Positions 31,052 through 52,013 are shown, counted from the first letter of the stretch. The stretch: 64,000 bases of DNA from Synergistaceae bacterium (GCA_031267575.1 JAIRYN010000031.1:1-64000), one strand, 5' to 3'. The notes: a model not told the origin generated them from the letters alone. Translations and numbers: made by a program.

Positions 31052-31552
31052 TTACATCCCTCGTGTCCAGACCACAGTGTTCGATCGCTTGTAAAGGTAC
31101 GTGGAGCTAAAGGTTGGGGGAGGGGTCAAAATATTGTCGGAACCATAAAGAGCCATCGTATAGGTGGATTGGGCTTTATCCTCTATGATCTCATTCACAC
31201 GAGTCTTACCCTTTAGCCTCACTCCCACCCACCACTTGCCACCCGTAAAGAAAAAAGCGTAGCGGATGGGGTCGTTGATAATGCGTCCATGGTCCATGTA
31301 CTTACCCAGCAGTTCAGCGTAATTAACGCTCGCGGCTGGGAAAAAATCGCCGCTATTCATAACAAACAACATCGCGCCAGATTTCATAACGCGGAGGTCA
31401 CTGAGAATAGCCATCGCTTCGGCGCTGGACTCGCCACTCGCCTGGGCCAACAACATAGACCCTGCCAATATCCCGATGATAACGATGACGATCAAGACTT
31501 CGACGAGCGTAAAACCTTCACGTTTTTTTCGAGGTTGACACATTCGATACAT
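31052..31552 (-). CDS. Type IV prepilin-like protein
   Basis: 166 residues. The class III signal KKREGFTLVEVLIVIVIIGI has the Gly/Phe prepilin peptidase site, Glu at +5, and a hydrophobic helix, so it would be cleaved and methylated and assembled as a (pseudo)pilin. The globular part includes NSGDFFPAASVNY and GGKWWVGVRLKGKTRVNEI and is not assigned to a subtype. GAGAGG lies upstream of ATG 31552. No other pilus genes are nearby, so it may be a minor pilin or an orphan pilin-like surface protein. Confidence 0.85.
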   Translation of the reverse strand: MYRMCQPRKKREGFTLVEVLIVIVIIGILAGSMLLAQASGESSAEAMAILSDLRVMKSGAMLFVMNSGDFFPAASVNYAELLGKYMDHGRIINDPIRYAFFFTGGKWWVGVRLKGKTRVNEIIEDKAQSTYTMALYGSDNILTPPPTFSSTYLYKRSNTVVWTRGM

Positions 31553-45263: not shown

Positions 45264-46652
45264 TTATTTCTTAATGCCACGCTCTTCGTCGGTGCCGGGG
45301 ACGAGAGAATCACAGAGCGCGGCGCAGATTCCTGCCACGGCCATGGGGGTTTTCAGAATAGCCCAGGCCATGCTGCCCAAGGTGGAAAGAAATTTTCCGT
45401 AAGCTGGGTCCGTAAAGGTTTTTTGCACAGCTTCCTGCCCCACCCAATTGGGTAAACCCATTGCCATCAAAAAAGCGAAGCCCACGATGAGGATGTTTCT
45501 CTGGCTGCCCAGGTCCGCGCGGGTCAATACCTGAATCCCTAGGGCCCCGATCGTCCCGAAAAGCGCGATGTACGCCCCACCAATGACGGGAGCGGGCATG
45601 GTGGCCACAAGAGCGCCGAACTTTCCCAATAGGCTCATGCCAATGAGCAACACCGCCCCCGTGCGGACGACGTTGCGGGATGCCATACCTGTGAGGCCGA
45701 TCAGGCCGATGTTCTCGGTGTAGGATGTGGTGCCGACGGACCCCAGCAAACCCGACAGGGCGCAGTTCATTCCCTCGGCCCCGATGCCCCGGCTGATCGT
45801 CGCGGGCGCGGGGTCCTCCAGATCTGCGACGTAAGAGCAGGAATGGTAATCCCCGATTGACTCGATCATGACGGCGAAAAAACCCGCCAGCATTGCGCTG
45901 ATCGCCAGCAAACTGAACTTGGGAACGCCCCAGGGAATGACAATCTCCGTGCGCCAGACAGGAGCGTTCAACACGGTCTGAAAGTCGATGAAAATAGGGT
46001 GTCCTGCCTCCACCCAACCAGCTTGGGATGCCCCAACGCAGGTCAGATAGGCCACGAGAATGGCGGACAGCACGGCGAAAATATTGAGGATTTTGCTTTT
46101 CGACACCAAGCTGAAGATAAAAATCAACACTACCACCAGAAGAGAAACCGGCCAAAATTTCGACGCGTTGTCCACGGCTGTTGGCGCCAGAGAAAATCCG
46201 ATAGCCATGATGGTGGGGCCAATGACCACCGGTGTGATGACCTTGCGGATGACTCCCACGAGTCCCGTGTAACCCAAAAGAGCCAGAATGAGCCCGCCCA
46301 CGATCAAGCCGCCCCCCACGTACTGCATGACGGTTTCTGGACCGGCTGCCCCATAGGCTCCGATGACCGTCATGATCGGCGGAATGAAACTGAAACTGGA
46401 ACCCTGCACGATGGGTAGCCCCGTGCCTAGCTTAGGGTGCGTCTGAATCAACGTCGCGATTCCCATGCCGAAATATACGCATCCGATGAACTTGGCGAGC
46501 TGTTCCGGATTCATGCCCATCGCCGGGCCGAAAATTAAGGGCACCAACGTGGTCGCCCCGAAAAGCGTCAAAACGTGTTGCGCCCCCGCCAATATCATGA
46601 TCGGGAAAGGCGGCGTGTCGTTTACCCCATACACTACTTGTCTCTTTGCCAT
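45264..46652 (-). CDS. uraA: Uracil permease (UraA/NCS2 family)
   Basis: 462 residues, 12-14 membrane segments. QHVLTLFGATTLVPLI at the start and GQ/E-type NCS2 signatures later (FFAVMIESIGDYHS, TTSYTENIGLIGLTGMASRNVV) mark it as a uracil/xanthine-type permease; position after pyrR favours uracil. ATG 46652 has AGGAGG eight bases upstream. The longer in-frame extension overlaps the pyrE relic and is not part of the gene. Under the PyrR attenuator at 47525-47640. Confidence 0.93.
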   Translation of the reverse strand: MAKRQVVYGVNDTPPFPIMILAGAQHVLTLFGATTLVPLIFGPAMGMNPEQLAKFIGCVYFGMGIATLIQTHPKLGTGLPIVQGSSFSFIPPIMTVIGAYGAAGPETVMQYVGGGLIVGGLILALLGYTGLVGVIRKVITPVVIGPTIMAIGFSLAPTAVDNASKFWPVSLLVVVLIFIFSLVSKSKILNIFAVLSAILVAYLTCVGASQAGWVEAGHPIFIDFQTVLNAPVWRTEIVIPWGVPKFSLLAISAMLAGFFAVMIESIGDYHSCSYVADLEDPAPATISRGIGAEGMNCALSGLLGSVGTTSYTENIGLIGLTGMASRNVVRTGAVLLIGMSLLGKFGALVATMPAPVIGGAYIALFGTIGALGIQVLTRADLGSQRNILIVGFAFLMAMGLPNWVGQEAVQKTFTDPAYGKFLSTLGSMAWAILKTPMAVAGICAALCDSLVPGTDEERGIKK

Positions 46653-46672
46653 AATCGTTCCTCCTGTATTTT

Positions 46673-46859: not shown

Positions 46860-47448
<589 letters not shown>

Positions 47449-47524: not shown

Positions 47525-47571
47525 ATAAAAGGCGTGCCCGCCGTCCTTTGCAAGTCGACAGGGCACGCCTT
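47525..47571 (-). terminator. Attenuator terminator in the pyrR leader
   Basis: On the minus strand AAGGCGTGCCC (complement of 47561-47571) and GGGCACGCCTT (complement of 47529-47539) form a perfect 11-bp stem, followed by TTATT. It is about 125 bases upstream of the pyrR start and downstream of the PyrR-binding element, as required for transcription attenuation. Confidence 0.88.
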
Positions 47572-47589
47572 AATTCGCGTTTATGCCAC

Positions 47590-47642
47590 GTGTTTAATCG
47601 CCTTACCAGCCTCTCTGGACTGGACTTAAAGGACACGTTTCA
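47590..47642 (-). promoter_or_regulatory. PyrR-binding anti-antiterminator element
   Basis: The leader RNA contains GTCCAGTCCAGAGAGGCTGG followed by TAAGG (complement of 47601-47625), which fits the conserved PyrR binding loop UCCAGAGAGGCU known from Bacillus pyr leaders. Outer arms ACGTGT and ACACGT close the stem. PyrR with UMP would stabilise this stem and allow the downstream terminator to form. Confidence 0.88.
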
Positions 47643-47771: not shown

Positions 47772-49319
47772 CTATTTTTGATACAGATAGAACTCGTCTG
47801 TATGCAGAACAACGAGAGCTAAATCATAGTCGCCGCTATCAACAGCGTTTTGTGCTTCGCTCTGCGCGTGGGCGAGCAATTCGTCATCGGTCATTTCCAC
47901 ATATGAGGGCAAAGTGTCTTTATTACCCTTGTACTCAAATTCGTCGTTTGTTAAATTTATGCGTGTGCATTTTGCGTCATAACCAAAAATGCAAACCATA
48001 TCACGGCCAAAGTCAAATATTTGTTGTATCGTACGCAATCTAAATGGATAGGAGGAAACTTTAGATCTGTTACTATTCAAATTGAAAACCTTATAGGTTG
48101 AAACCTCTTTACTGTGGTCATATCGCGCTTCAATAGCTTCAATTGCGTTTTTCTGTCTTACTCCTGTTTGAATACCTTGATACATTGATCCTGCACCGGA
48201 TATTATAGAGCTTATGACAAAACTACTCACGCAGACTCTCAATGCTTTACCCTCGGTTTTATTCAGAAGATAGGCAAAGGCGATATTCGCGAAAAACACT
48301 ATGCAATTTTGACTCCAAATCGAACCCCCTGGCAAAGCAATTAATGTTGGTGTAAAAACAATTATCGACTGTAGTACAATTAGCAAAAGCACTATTGCGC
48401 TCTTGTTTTTGTCTTTAACAAGTTTAACAAATACTGATAACGATAATAAAAGTATTGGGATAGACAATAGAACACAAGCGCTTGTAAATACGACCTCTAT
48501 TGTCAGTATTTTGCTTCTGATAATCGTTATGATTGACGTCTGGTCTATTTGCGTATATGAGAACCCTAATCTCCGTGCGATTCCTATGACGTAGCTTGTT
48601 ATCGGATCGTTTCTCATTCCGTAAATCCATAACTGCTCAGACTGGATAATTGGCGATAAATAGTAGGCCAACGCACAGATGAATCCGGGAACATAAAATT
48701 TCGCAAGCGTTTTTATTTCCGATTTTGTGTTGAAATCGCCGTCATTCAAGTTCTTAATAAATCCAAATAACGGAATAATAGCGAAATAAACAATCCCTGC
48801 TTCTTTGGCGCATAACGCCAGTGTGCACGACACAAAATAAACGATGAATTTCTTGGCGATGCTCTTTGCGTTTGCAAACAGATAAATACCTATCGCTCCG
48901 AACATCAAACTTCCAGTCTGATTGAAGCAATCGTAGTTGATGACAGTCACGATTGTGTTTCCGCCAATTAGAAATAGCAGAGCAAACGCGAGAGCAATTT
49001 TGGCTCTTATGTCGAGTATTTCTCTCGCGATTTTATATAGGAATACCGCGCCCACAGTATGAGTGAACACAATTAAGACGCGGTTAAGCCACGGAAACGT
49101 TTCAGGGTGCGCCTGATTGAATAAACCAATCAGAATATCGAAAAATCTGCGATATTGAGCAATACGATAACCCGATTGAATTGTCGGCGAGGTTAAGTAA
49201 TGCCAGTCATCGGCAATCGGGACGATCAGCATAGTCAAGAAGAACAGCGCCAATCCGCCCACGGCAATCAGCAAGATGTTCTTGTCATTTTCCTTGTCAT
49301 TTTCCTTGCGTTTAATCAT
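47772..49319 (-). CDS. Multi-spanning membrane protein, putative GT-C glycosyltransferase (DUF6056-like)
   Basis: 515 residues with about 11 hydrophobic segments and a soluble C-terminal region of about 130 residues. An acidic DDWHYL motif follows the first membrane helix (IVPIADDWHYLTSPT), the position of the catalytic Asp/Glu in GT-C glycosyltransferases that use polyprenyl-phosphate sugars. I cannot name the family firmly; DUF6056-type proteins look similar. The start overlaps the HAD-GtrA gene stop by four bases (ATGA), and the N-terminus has an in-frame 12-bp duplication (49282-49305, KENDKENDK). A role transferring pentose from a lipid donor is inferred from the operon. Composition is more AT-rich than neighbours. 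Confidence 0.65.
   Translation of the reverse strand: MIKRKENDKENDKNILLIAVGGLALFFLTMLIVPIADDWHYLTSPTIQSGYRIAQYRRFFDILIGLFNQAHPETFPWLNRVLIVFTHTVGAVFLYKIAREILDIRAKIALAFALLFLIGGNTIVTVINYDCFNQTGSLMFGAIGIYLFANAKSIAKKFIVYFVSCTLALCAKEAGIVYFAIIPLFGFIKNLNDGDFNTKSEIKTLAKFYVPGFICALAYYLSPIIQSEQLWIYGMRNDPITSYVIGIARRLGFSYTQIDQTSIITIIRSKILTIEVVFTSACVLLSIPILLLSLSVFVKLVKDKNKSAIVLLLIVLQSIIVFTPTLIALPGGSIWSQNCIVFFANIAFAYLLNKTEGKALRVCVSSFVISSIISGAGSMYQGIQTGVRQKNAIEAIEARYDHSKEVSTYKVFNLNSNRSKVSSYPFRLRTIQQIFDFGRDMVCIFGYDAKCTRINLTNDEFEYKGNKDTLPSYVEMTDDELLAHAQSEAQNAVDSGDYDLALVVLHTDEFYLYQK
49282..49305 (-). repeat. 12-bp in-frame duplication at an N-terminus
   Basis: ttgtcattttcc at 49282-49293 and 49294-49305 on the plus strand; gives Glu-Asn-Asp-Lys twice in the cytoplasmic start of the membrane protein. 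Confidence 0.93.
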
Positions 49320-50347
49320 TTGAAAATTCCCCTTTGTTTAGGTTGTTTTAGGTTGTTATTGTTATGTTTTCCAAACGCAAACCACTTTGTCAGCACGAAC
49401 GTCAGCGGTACAGACAAACACGCGGCGAGAGCATATACGAAAATGTTATTCCACCCCAACAAGTTAATGCACACGCCAACGAACCCCACCAAAATACATA
49501 GGCTCGGTGTATACGATACGCAAAATCGCCCGAACTGCGTGAACGATAGTTGTTTTAACGCAAGTCTATATGTCAGCAGACCGCTCAACACATACGCCGG
49601 AATCAACCCTACAGCATAGCCGATAAAATATGCGATGGTTGGATCAATAATTAATGACGAGAAAGCCGAAACAGTAATCGCCGTTATTGATCCAATCACG
49701 CCGCAAAACACGAATGAAATAAATTTGCGCGAGAAGTAGGTGCGCTTGACCTTGCTCGCGAAGCTCGGTTTGTACTCGCCCCATGGGATTATCCGCCTTC
49801 CCTTTACTAAGAACGCGGATTTTGCGAGTGCGGCCATTGGCTCGTCTGACAACGTGTCGGAGTAAAACCGTGCGACGACAACGTCTGGAAACATCGCGCG
49901 GAAACGGTTGACCTTTTCCGCGCCGTGGCAGTTCGTGCCGAGCCATTCCCCGGTTCGCGGACTTGCGCGTGAGGCAATCAGAGTAACGCCCCACTCATCG
50001 CAGAGCGGTCGGAGCAGAAACTCCGGAGAAGCGGATATAATTACTTCGCCCGCTTTGCGCTCGTCAAGCGTTTTGTGCTCGTCAAGATAAAATGTTTTGA
50101 TTTTCTTCCTGTGTGTATACCAAAACTCGCGCACGGTTTGCTCCGTATCGGCGAGCGACTTCACGCATGCGAAGAACTTCGACTTGAATTGTTCTTTGCT
50201 GTAAAACCCCAAGCTATACAGCACGGTCGCGAGTATCAACGCGAGAAAATACACCGACTTAACGGGCTTGTTTTTCAGACAGTATCGCCAAAAATCAAGG
50301 GAACTGTCACCGTCGTAGATAGTGCCGTCGAAATCGTAAACGTTCAC
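49316..50347 (-). CDS. HAD-IB phosphatase fused to a GtrA-like membrane domain
   Basis: 343 residues. Residues 1-195 are a HAD subfamily-IB phosphatase: motif I YDFDGTIYDGDSS, motif II VIISASPE, motif III/IV region with GTNCHGAEKVNRF and the acidic YSDTLSDEPM. Residues about 215-335 are four membrane helices of the GtrA type (FVFCGVIGSITAITVSAF, GYAVGLIPAYVLSGLLTYR, LTFVLTKWFAF). In mycobacteria a phosphatase (Rv3807c) and a GtrA protein (Rv3789) act in the decaprenylphosphoryl-ribose/arabinose pathway; here they are one chain. Overlaps both neighbours by four bases. Predicted to dephosphorylate and help present the lipid-linked ribose. Confidence 0.82.
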   Translation of the reverse strand: MNVYDFDGTIYDGDSSLDFWRYCLKNKPVKSVYFLALILATVLYSLGFYSKEQFKSKFFACVKSLADTEQTVREFWYTHRKKIKTFYLDEHKTLDERKAGEVIISASPEFLLRPLCDEWGVTLIASRASPRTGEWLGTNCHGAEKVNRFRAMFPDVVVARFYSDTLSDEPMAALAKSAFLVKGRRIIPWGEYKPSFASKVKRTYFSRKFISFVFCGVIGSITAITVSAFSSLIIDPTIAYFIGYAVGLIPAYVLSGLLTYRLALKQLSFTQFGRFCVSYTPSLCILVGFVGVCINLLGWNNIFVYALAACLSVPLTFVLTKWFAFGKHNNNNLKQPKQRGIFK

Positions 50348-51201
50348 ATAAACCTCCCCGCGTAGAGTAAGCCGACAGTCAGTAGAGCGTACAAGCCACT
50401 TGCGGCGAGTAGGGTCTTATCCTCGAATATCACCGTGGTCGGGTCTCCGTGGGAATCGTCATCGTGAACGAGCAATAAATACTTGCACACGATAAAAATC
50501 ACGACAGGCACGGTGTAAATCATATTCAGTCCCCGCGCCATAGCCCACAACGAGTAAAACACAACCATTAACCCGGCGCAAACGAACATCATTCCGTTGA
50601 GAAAACGCAAATCGTACTGCTCCAAGGCGTGTCTTGTAAGCGAACCCTCCATTTTCATCATTTCACCGCGCCGCTTACCGAACGCCATAAACAGCGACAT
50701 CGCAATGACGGTCAAAAACAGCCAGTTCGATACCTTGTCGCCGATCGCAGCGCTTCCCGCGTACACCCGCAACACAAATCCTGCTGCTATGCAAAAGCAA
50801 TCAATAATCGCTAAGTGTTTTAGGCGTATCGTGTACGCGACATTGATAGCGAGGTAAGCCGCCGCGATCACCGCAGTCGGCAGGTTGACGAACAACGCAA
50901 GCGTCAAACCTGAAATAAGCAACAGAGCACAAAATACGGCGGCACCCGATTTCGGTATCGCGCCGGAGGCAATCGGGCGGCGGCATTTGATTGGATGCTC
51001 CGCGTCTTGCTCCGCATCCAGTAAGTCGTTAAAAGTATAGACTGTCGACGATGTCAAACAAAACGCCACAAACGCCAAACCGCACATCGCGAGTTTTGGT
51101 AAGTTCGTCAGTTCAAGCGAGAATACAAGCGGCATGAACACGAATACATTTTTCAGCCAGCTTTTGGGGCGAAGCTGTTTTATGTATGCAATTACAGGCA
51201 T
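50344..51201 (-). CDS. UbiA-family polyprenyl-phosphate phosphoribosyltransferase (DPPR-synthase-like)
   Basis: 285 residues, about nine membrane segments. The LRPKSWLKNVFVFMPLVFS start, the first Asp-rich motif NDLLDAEQDAEHP followed by KCRRPIASG, and LKHLAIIDCFCIAAGFVLRVYAG match the decaprenyl-phosphate 5-phosphoribosyltransferase branch (Rv3806c-like) of UbiA better than menaquinone or haem enzymes. It would join PRPP to polyprenyl phosphate, giving polyprenylphosphoryl-5-phosphoribose. First gene of the three-gene overlapping operon. No DprE1/DprE2 epimerase lies in the window, so the product may stay as ribose. Confidence 0.85.
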   Translation of the reverse strand: MPVIAYIKQLRPKSWLKNVFVFMPLVFSLELTNLPKLAMCGLAFVAFCLTSSTVYTFNDLLDAEQDAEHPIKCRRPIASGAIPKSGAAVFCALLLISGLTLALFVNLPTAVIAAAYLAINVAYTIRLKHLAIIDCFCIAAGFVLRVYAGSAAIGDKVSNWLFLTVIAMSLFMAFGKRRGEMMKMEGSLTRHALEQYDLRFLNGMMFVCAGLMVVFYSLWAMARGLNMIYTVPVVIFIVCKYLLLVHDDDSHGDPTTVIFEDKTLLAASGLYALLTVGLLYAGRFM

Positions 51202-52013
51202 AATCGTATCCTTTACTCAACAGGATTTTGGAGTTTACTCCAAAAGCGCGCGCCTTTTGATAGTCGCTTACCCCCTGCTAAAAACAGCACAATGACCCAT
51301 AATTCGTAATGACTCAGAGCTTGATGAATGACTTGATGAATGACTTGATGAATAAATGGAGACGCGCGTAAAAAAGGCGGCGCGCCCATCAAATAGAGGA
51401 CAGAATCGCCGTTATCGGCGTATAGAGTTTGATTGCCAATGGTATCGGAAAACGTCGCGCCGCAAACGGGCACGAAAAAACTATAAAAAGAGAAAAAATT
51501 CTCCTTTGGAGGAGTCATTAAAGAATAATCTGGCATCTGGCATCTGGCATCTGGCATCTGGCAAAATTATATAGGCCCATTACTAAATTTACAAGAGTAA
51601 AACGCACAAAAACAAGGAAATCAATGTGATTAACCTTCATTATCTCATGCCTCTCTTCTCGCTCATGAGGTGAAAGCGTCTTTCCAATGTAATCTTTCTG
51701 CCTATCAGCTTTTTTGTTTGTTGCTGTCAGTAAACTATTGACTAACCCTGAGTAGTTGGCGTAATTCTATGTGTGTTAACCAGAAAGTTGACACCCCCAT
51801 CCGCGAGATGAGGTCGAAAAATCTCCATAAATCCTTTCAGTGTAAGGGATAGAGCGTTTCCTTTTTTTCGCCAAATGGTGAAAGATAAAAAATCGCTGTT
51901 CCCTTAAACAACGTAGAATGACGCGGATTTTTAGAAAGTATCTCGCGGATTGAGGTGACATCATTGTTCCATAAGCAATATTACTTCAATATTACTTCAA
52001 TATTATTTCAATA
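51202..52013. other. 812-base intergenic region with microsatellites and a palindrome
   Basis: No gene supported. Contents: a 9-bp hairpin TTTTGGAGT/ACTCCAAAA at 51226-51245; a 12-bp cttgatgaatga array (three copies, 51320-51353); a 7-bp ctggcat array (four and a half copies, 51530-51562); and an operator-like imperfect palindrome GTGTTAAC..GTTGACAC near 51773-51795. Reading frames here are made largely of repeat DNA. The last part, 51977-52020, is the array over the next gene's stop codon. It probably carries the promoter of the UbiA operon. Confidence 0.6.
51530..51562. repeat. 7-bp microsatellite, 4.6 copies
   Basis: ctggcat repeated four times exactly, then ctggc. The unit is not a multiple of three, which fits a non-coding position. 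Confidence 0.97.

Follow-up and report, generated by a model that had tools for sequence, protein, structure and literature searches.

A candidate ribose-lipid glycosylation operon with a phosphatase fused to GtrA in a Synergistaceae bacterium

Introduction

Do three adjoining genes of a Synergistaceae bacterium encode a pathway that transfers ribofuranose from a lipid carrier to an acceptor outside the cytoplasm, and would such a pathway be new? The locus lies in a 64,000-nucleotide stretch of DNA (the window). An earlier note made from its sequence alone compared these genes with the mycobacterial decaprenylphosphoryl-arabinose pathway, which comprises Rv3806c, Rv3807c, DprE1/DprE2, Rv3789 and the Emb/Aft GT-C glycosyltransferases. 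It proposed a UbiA protein of the DPPR-synthase type, a single protein joining a phosphatase to a GtrA domain, and a GT-C-like transferase, without the DprE epimerase, and considered such a pathway undescribed in Synergistota.

Results

Layout and edges of the operon

The three open reading frames run on the minus strand from 51201 to 47772 (Table 1), and the four-base overlaps reported at both junctions are indeed present in the sequence. Judged from this arrangement, the genes appear to be translationally coupled, which we count in favour of a single pathway. The third gene has a G+C content of 40%, the other two 49-50% and the window as a whole 53%. These values are compatible with acquisition, without proving it.

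Table 1. Features of the operon and its downstream edge (window coordinates)
Feature	Position	Strand	Basis
UbiA-superfamily polyprenyl-phosphate 5-phosphoribosyltransferase (PPPRS / DPPR-synthase type), predicted, 285 aa	50344..51201	-	family and residue match
HAD-IB phosphatase fused to GtrA domain, 343 aa, GTG start	49316..50347	-	PF12710 and PF04138
Putative GT-C glycosyltransferase, multi-spanning, 515 aa, DDWHY motif early in the sequence	47772..49319	-	homologs and model matches
GTGA four-base overlap, UbiA/HAD-GtrA genes	50344..50347	-	sequence
ATGA four-base overlap, HAD-GtrA/GT-C genes	49316..49319	-	sequence
PyrR-binding attenuator belonging to the pyrR and permease genes downstream, outside the pathway	47525..47636	-	Rfam RF00515

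The attenuator, whose RF00515 match of 49.3 bits (E = 7e-5) is below the gathering score of 54, is followed by genes for a PyrR-like phosphoribosyltransferase (46860-47402) and a xanthine/uracil-type permease (45264-46655), and it delimits the operon on its downstream side. A hairpin considered as a terminator of the third gene is part of this attenuator and was dropped. Around the operon, sites resembling promoters or terminators were not commoner than in shuffled sequence.

The heptamer GCCAGAT stands in five tandem copies at 51528-51563, upstream of the UbiA gene by about 330 bases. No other place in the genome has three exact copies in succession, and further short tandem repeats cluster near the operon. 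The heptamer repeat possibly serves phase variation, or it may just be slippage-prone sequence. Elsewhere in the window, a type IV prepilin-like protein (GFTLVEVLIVIVIIGILA) is encoded at 31052-31552 on the minus strand, with no tie to the operon; Pseudomonas pilins accept lipid-linked pentose.

The UbiA protein resembles DPPR synthases

The first gene product matches PF01040 (E = 1e-27). Its best NCBIfam model is NF008977 (decaprenyl-phosphate phosphoribosyltransferase) with 223 bits (E = 5e-66), 11 bits below the curated cut-off of 234 bits. The haem and quinone UbiA models reach only about 40-43 bits, and the protein thus does not group with those prenyltransferases. A comparison with the solved DPPR synthase 8j8j (E = 8e-36) agrees with the DPPR-synthase assignment, which can be retained. 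The residues N58, D59, D62 and D66 together with R177 and E180 have the same spacing as the residues studied in Citrobacter ORF15, namely N247, D248, D251 and D255 of loop II and R366 and E369 of loop IV (PMC11127046), and nearly all of the 25 relatives in an alignment keep them. The predicted chemistry, in which PRPP reacts with polyprenyl phosphate, is hence well supported by family and residues. The DPPR-type UbiA gene is present as a single copy in the genome, and neither this enzyme nor the HAD enzyme looks decayed in sequence.

A phosphatase and a GtrA domain in one protein

The second gene encodes a HAD domain (PF12710, E = 1e-19) and a GtrA domain (PF04138, E = 2e-9; 37.9 bits against a cut-off of 26.1) in a single polypeptide, both above their cut-offs, just as had been proposed. 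The GtrA domain, residues 212-325, is the only one in the genome. Six other loci (L028-L032 and L067) carry such a fusion, and the HAD motifs D5/D7 (DFDGT), S105, K145 and D164/D168 are invariant across all seven proteins. On the HAD tree the fusion requires five changes. In L028 and L067 it again accompanies a UbiA gene and a large membrane protein. In L030, L031 and L032 the HAD-GtrA gene (~7.1-9.0 kb) lies directly downstream of CarD-like, ispD and ispF-like genes, and in two of these three genomes no DPPR-type UbiA was found.

The window's HAD domain scores far higher than any other HAD in the phylum, and a quick tree places it beside UbiA-linked HADs with moderate support (85% SH-aLRT). 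A profile of this HAD subfamily gave no match to the HAD domain that alphaproteobacterial fusions carry alongside UbiA. Among viral contigs, neither HAD-GtrA nor UbiA had a relative; a UbiA match in the phage record MT837543 was set aside, as this record is a scaffold of 6.6 kb that is unverified. No paper on a phosphatase-GtrA fusion was found among the open-licence papers searched.

The third protein is likely, though not securely, a GT-C enzyme

No family reaches its cut-off with the third protein, the nearest being DUF6080 at E = 5e-5 only. The DDWHY motif occupies residues 37-41, and four homologs, all encoded beside UbiA genes, keep D37, D38 and Y41 without exception. Homologs adjoin UbiA in L050, L071 and L168, and in one genome of the window's phylum (G465) the UbiA gene is followed by a homolog scoring 167 bits. 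A structural model built from three sequences is of low confidence (mean pLDDT 54, pTM 0.59). Yeast STT3 (oligosaccharyltransferase), ArnT and Pmt4 head the list of PDB entries that it matches (best E 5e-3), and the GT-C entries among the first nine matches have probabilities of 0.75-1.0. The poorer model of the L071 homolog (pLDDT 50) gave no PDB match, GT-C or other, and no further GT-C homologs were found in 295 genomes of the L071 family. The suggestion of a GT-C fold therefore survives in a weakened form: the motif and the modest matches of the window's own model speak for it, the L071 model is silent, and the assignment, while likely, is insecure.

The genome appears to lack DprE1

The family ALO (PF04030) has no match in the window's genome, but as a DprE1 marker it proved insensitive, a DprE1-like protein of Rhizobium scoring only 16 bits. 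FAD_binding_4 was therefore used instead. Of the genome's three proteins with this domain, two are FAD-oxidase_C enzymes and the third is MurB, so no DprE1 was seen. This agrees with the proposed absence of DprE1, and the dprE pair that would speak against it was not encountered on the dprE1 side of the search of this genome. DprE1 probes likewise had no match within the fetched flanks of 80 related loci. DprE-like genes do accompany UbiA in other settings: plasmids of Rhizobium and Cereibacter carry a HAD-UbiA fusion, a GtrA gene and a pair of FAD oxidoreductase and SDR genes fitting DprE1/DprE2, and a Flammeovirgaceae plasmid carries UbiA with a similar pair.

Related loci

A scan of 84,980 genomes for the HAD yielded 385 relatives. 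The best 80 of the 385, mostly from gut Firmicutes with some from Treponema and Coriobacteriales, were kept and combined with the window and two plasmids into a set of 83 loci. A DPPR-type UbiA gene lies within 3 kb of the HAD in 43 of them, and a membrane protein of at least 400 residues, a label given by length and hydropathy only, adjoins the cassette in 35 of these 43. Since the search was seeded with the HAD itself, these counts are not natural frequencies. The neighbouring large membrane proteins fall into 14 sequence clusters, the window's excluded. On the HAD tree the UbiA-linked label clusters, requiring 13 changes against a mean of 28 after shuffling. UbiA-HAD-membrane-protein cassettes without DprE1 are thus common in this set.

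Among 32 genomes in which the HAD lies away from UbiA, a DPPR-type UbiA was present in only five, and some HAD copies reside in DUF1385/prmC/prfA or ispD-ispF neighbourhoods (names read from the sequences). The HAD subfamily, which occurs without UbiA and in some copies at housekeeping loci, is thus not devoted exclusively to phosphoribose, and we rejected the HAD alone as a pathway marker. In the window's phylum, 19 of 188 genomes have a DPPR-type UbiA. In G486, G459 and G456 it adjoins other large membrane proteins without this HAD.

Other neighbourhoods differ. The DPPR-type UbiA of the related genomes L108, L112 and L114 has a radical SAM gene (FDVTKLCNQRCPMCN) in its vicinity, joined in the latter two by an NAD-dependent epimerase-like gene, which suggests from gene context a different use of the enzyme. 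On a Haloterrigena plasmid (L125), a UbiA annotated as decaprenyl-phosphate phosphoribosyltransferase lies near a GT39, a DolP-mannose mannosyltransferase and an NAD-dependent epimerase.

Comparison with known systems

Of the systems with a constant donor cassette, the GtrABC O-antigen modification of Shigella and Salmonella combines a constant donor synthase and GtrA with a variable GT-C. The related loci resemble it in that their donor cassette is constant and their neighbouring membrane proteins are variable. The donor synthase of the window is a UbiA protein, whereas GtrB has no relationship to UbiA and takes a UDP-sugar. On the Lactococcus plasmid pLLF27D (NZ_PP589792.1), genes for a membrane protein of 533 aa, UbiA of the DPPR type, a HAD-IB phosphatase and GtrA follow one another within a polysaccharide cluster, but there HAD and GtrA are separate genes.

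The mycobacterial parallel drawn at the outset is, for Rv3807c, one of function only. The window shares with that pathway a UbiA homologous to DPPR synthase, a GtrA protein and a like order of predicted steps. On the other hand, no DprE1 was found in the genome and phosphatase and GtrA form one protein. Furthermore, the phosphatase Rv3807c belongs to another structural family and is unrelated to HAD enzymes (PMC11127046).

The closest parallel in logic is the three-component pentofuranose system of Citrobacter youngae O1/O2, with the PPPRS ORF15, the flippase ORF14 and the GT136 enzyme ORF12, for which Kelly et al. in 2024 proved the ribose-lipid pathway and called it widespread (PMC11127046). 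Both clusters combine UbiA of the DPPR type with a HAD phosphatase, a small membrane transporter and a transferase of the GT-C type, putative in the window, and both do without DprE. However, the Citrobacter phosphatase is fused to UbiA and that of the window to GtrA, the Citrobacter flippase is EmrE/ArnE-like while the window's candidate is GtrA, and ORF12 has a carbohydrate-binding domain whereas the putative GT-C is a protein of 515 aa. In the known systems the transporters are proposed flippases, flipping itself not having been directly demonstrated (PMC11127046).

The claim that the pathway is new consequently fails, because of the Citrobacter precedent, the common gut-Firmicutes cassettes without DprE1 and the pairs of UbiA and large membrane protein within the same phylum.

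Discussion

The predicted PPPRS, the flippase candidate and the GT-C candidate, the weakest of the three, all occur in one cluster. The following sequence of steps can be proposed. UbiA would join PRPP and polyprenyl phosphate to give polyprenyl-P-ribose-5-P, the HAD domain would take off the 5'-phosphate, the GtrA domain would aid movement of polyprenyl-P-ribofuranose to the outer face, and the GT-C protein would pass ribofuranose to a surface glycan or protein. We infer the phosphatase and flipping steps, the sugar and its acceptor by analogy with Citrobacter and mycobacteria and from the way the operon is built. With these elements so derived, we consider it probable that the locus is a dedicated operon for extracytoplasmic pentofuranose transfer.

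The sugar that is handed on could nevertheless differ from the one that is first made. An unlinked epimerase might convert lipid-linked ribose to xylofuranose or arabinofuranose, so that ribose itself would not be transferred. Citrobacter O2 makes xylofuranose with a single epimerase, ORF13 (PMC11127046), and in G008, a relative from the same family, genes for UbiA, an SMR-type transporter and an NAD-dependent epimerase adjoin one another. No epimerase is found in the window's operon or adjoining it, however, the FAD_binding_4 search showed no DprE1 in the genome, and the alphaproteobacterial and Flammeovirgaceae relatives keep their epimerase genes linked to UbiA, all of which makes this course of events quite unlikely. 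A ribofuranosyl lipid donor is the best reading for the operon, and an unlinked epimerase may exist beside it.

The role of the HAD domain is a matter of prediction, since genomes that lack this UbiA also contain members of its subfamily. HAD-GtrA could be a general envelope-lipid phosphatase or transporter, similar to phosphatidylglycerophosphatase C, with UbiA and the GT-C protein relying on another phosphatase and flippase. Such a role would accord with a weak match to the PgpC model (E = 4e-6, far below the cut-off), with the many genomes that have the HAD but no DPPR-type UbiA, with the fusions beside ispD-ispF-like genes and with the genomes of the phylum in which UbiA and a large membrane protein have no such HAD nearby. 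We nonetheless hold it to be unlikely: both junctions of the operon overlap, its GtrA has no counterpart elsewhere in the genome, the link of HAD to UbiA is frequent and clusters on the tree, and L028 and L067 repeat the same combination. The third protein, in turn, might be another kind of polytopic envelope protein, such as a polymerase or transporter, and no glycosyltransferase at all. The missing family assignment, the low model confidence and the unmatched L071 model leave room for this, but the leading matches to STT3, ArnT and Pmt4, with probabilities up to 1.0, and the early DD..Y motif, invariant in homologs beside UbiA genes, make it unlikely.

In summary, the locus reads as a real ribose-lipid glycosylation operon that, as far as its sequence tells, is ordinary in kind and unusual in its domain packaging. 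The new element is this packaging, with phosphatase and proposed flippase as one protein. It invites the tentative idea, rather unlikely as it stands, of a coupled phosphatase-flippase in which only the dephosphorylated ribose lipid reaches the membrane domain and the two activities form one committed step. If true, this would tie GtrA directly to polyprenyl-P-pentose translocation, which would be biochemically new. The natural fusion also provides a guilt-by-fusion argument for GtrA handling the ribose lipid, and it is a compact construct suited to testing the proposed flipping. Finally, the cassette without DprE1 is shown to be common among related gut-Firmicutes loci, and the predicted operon would add a further bacterial group to those with ribose-lipid glycosylation.
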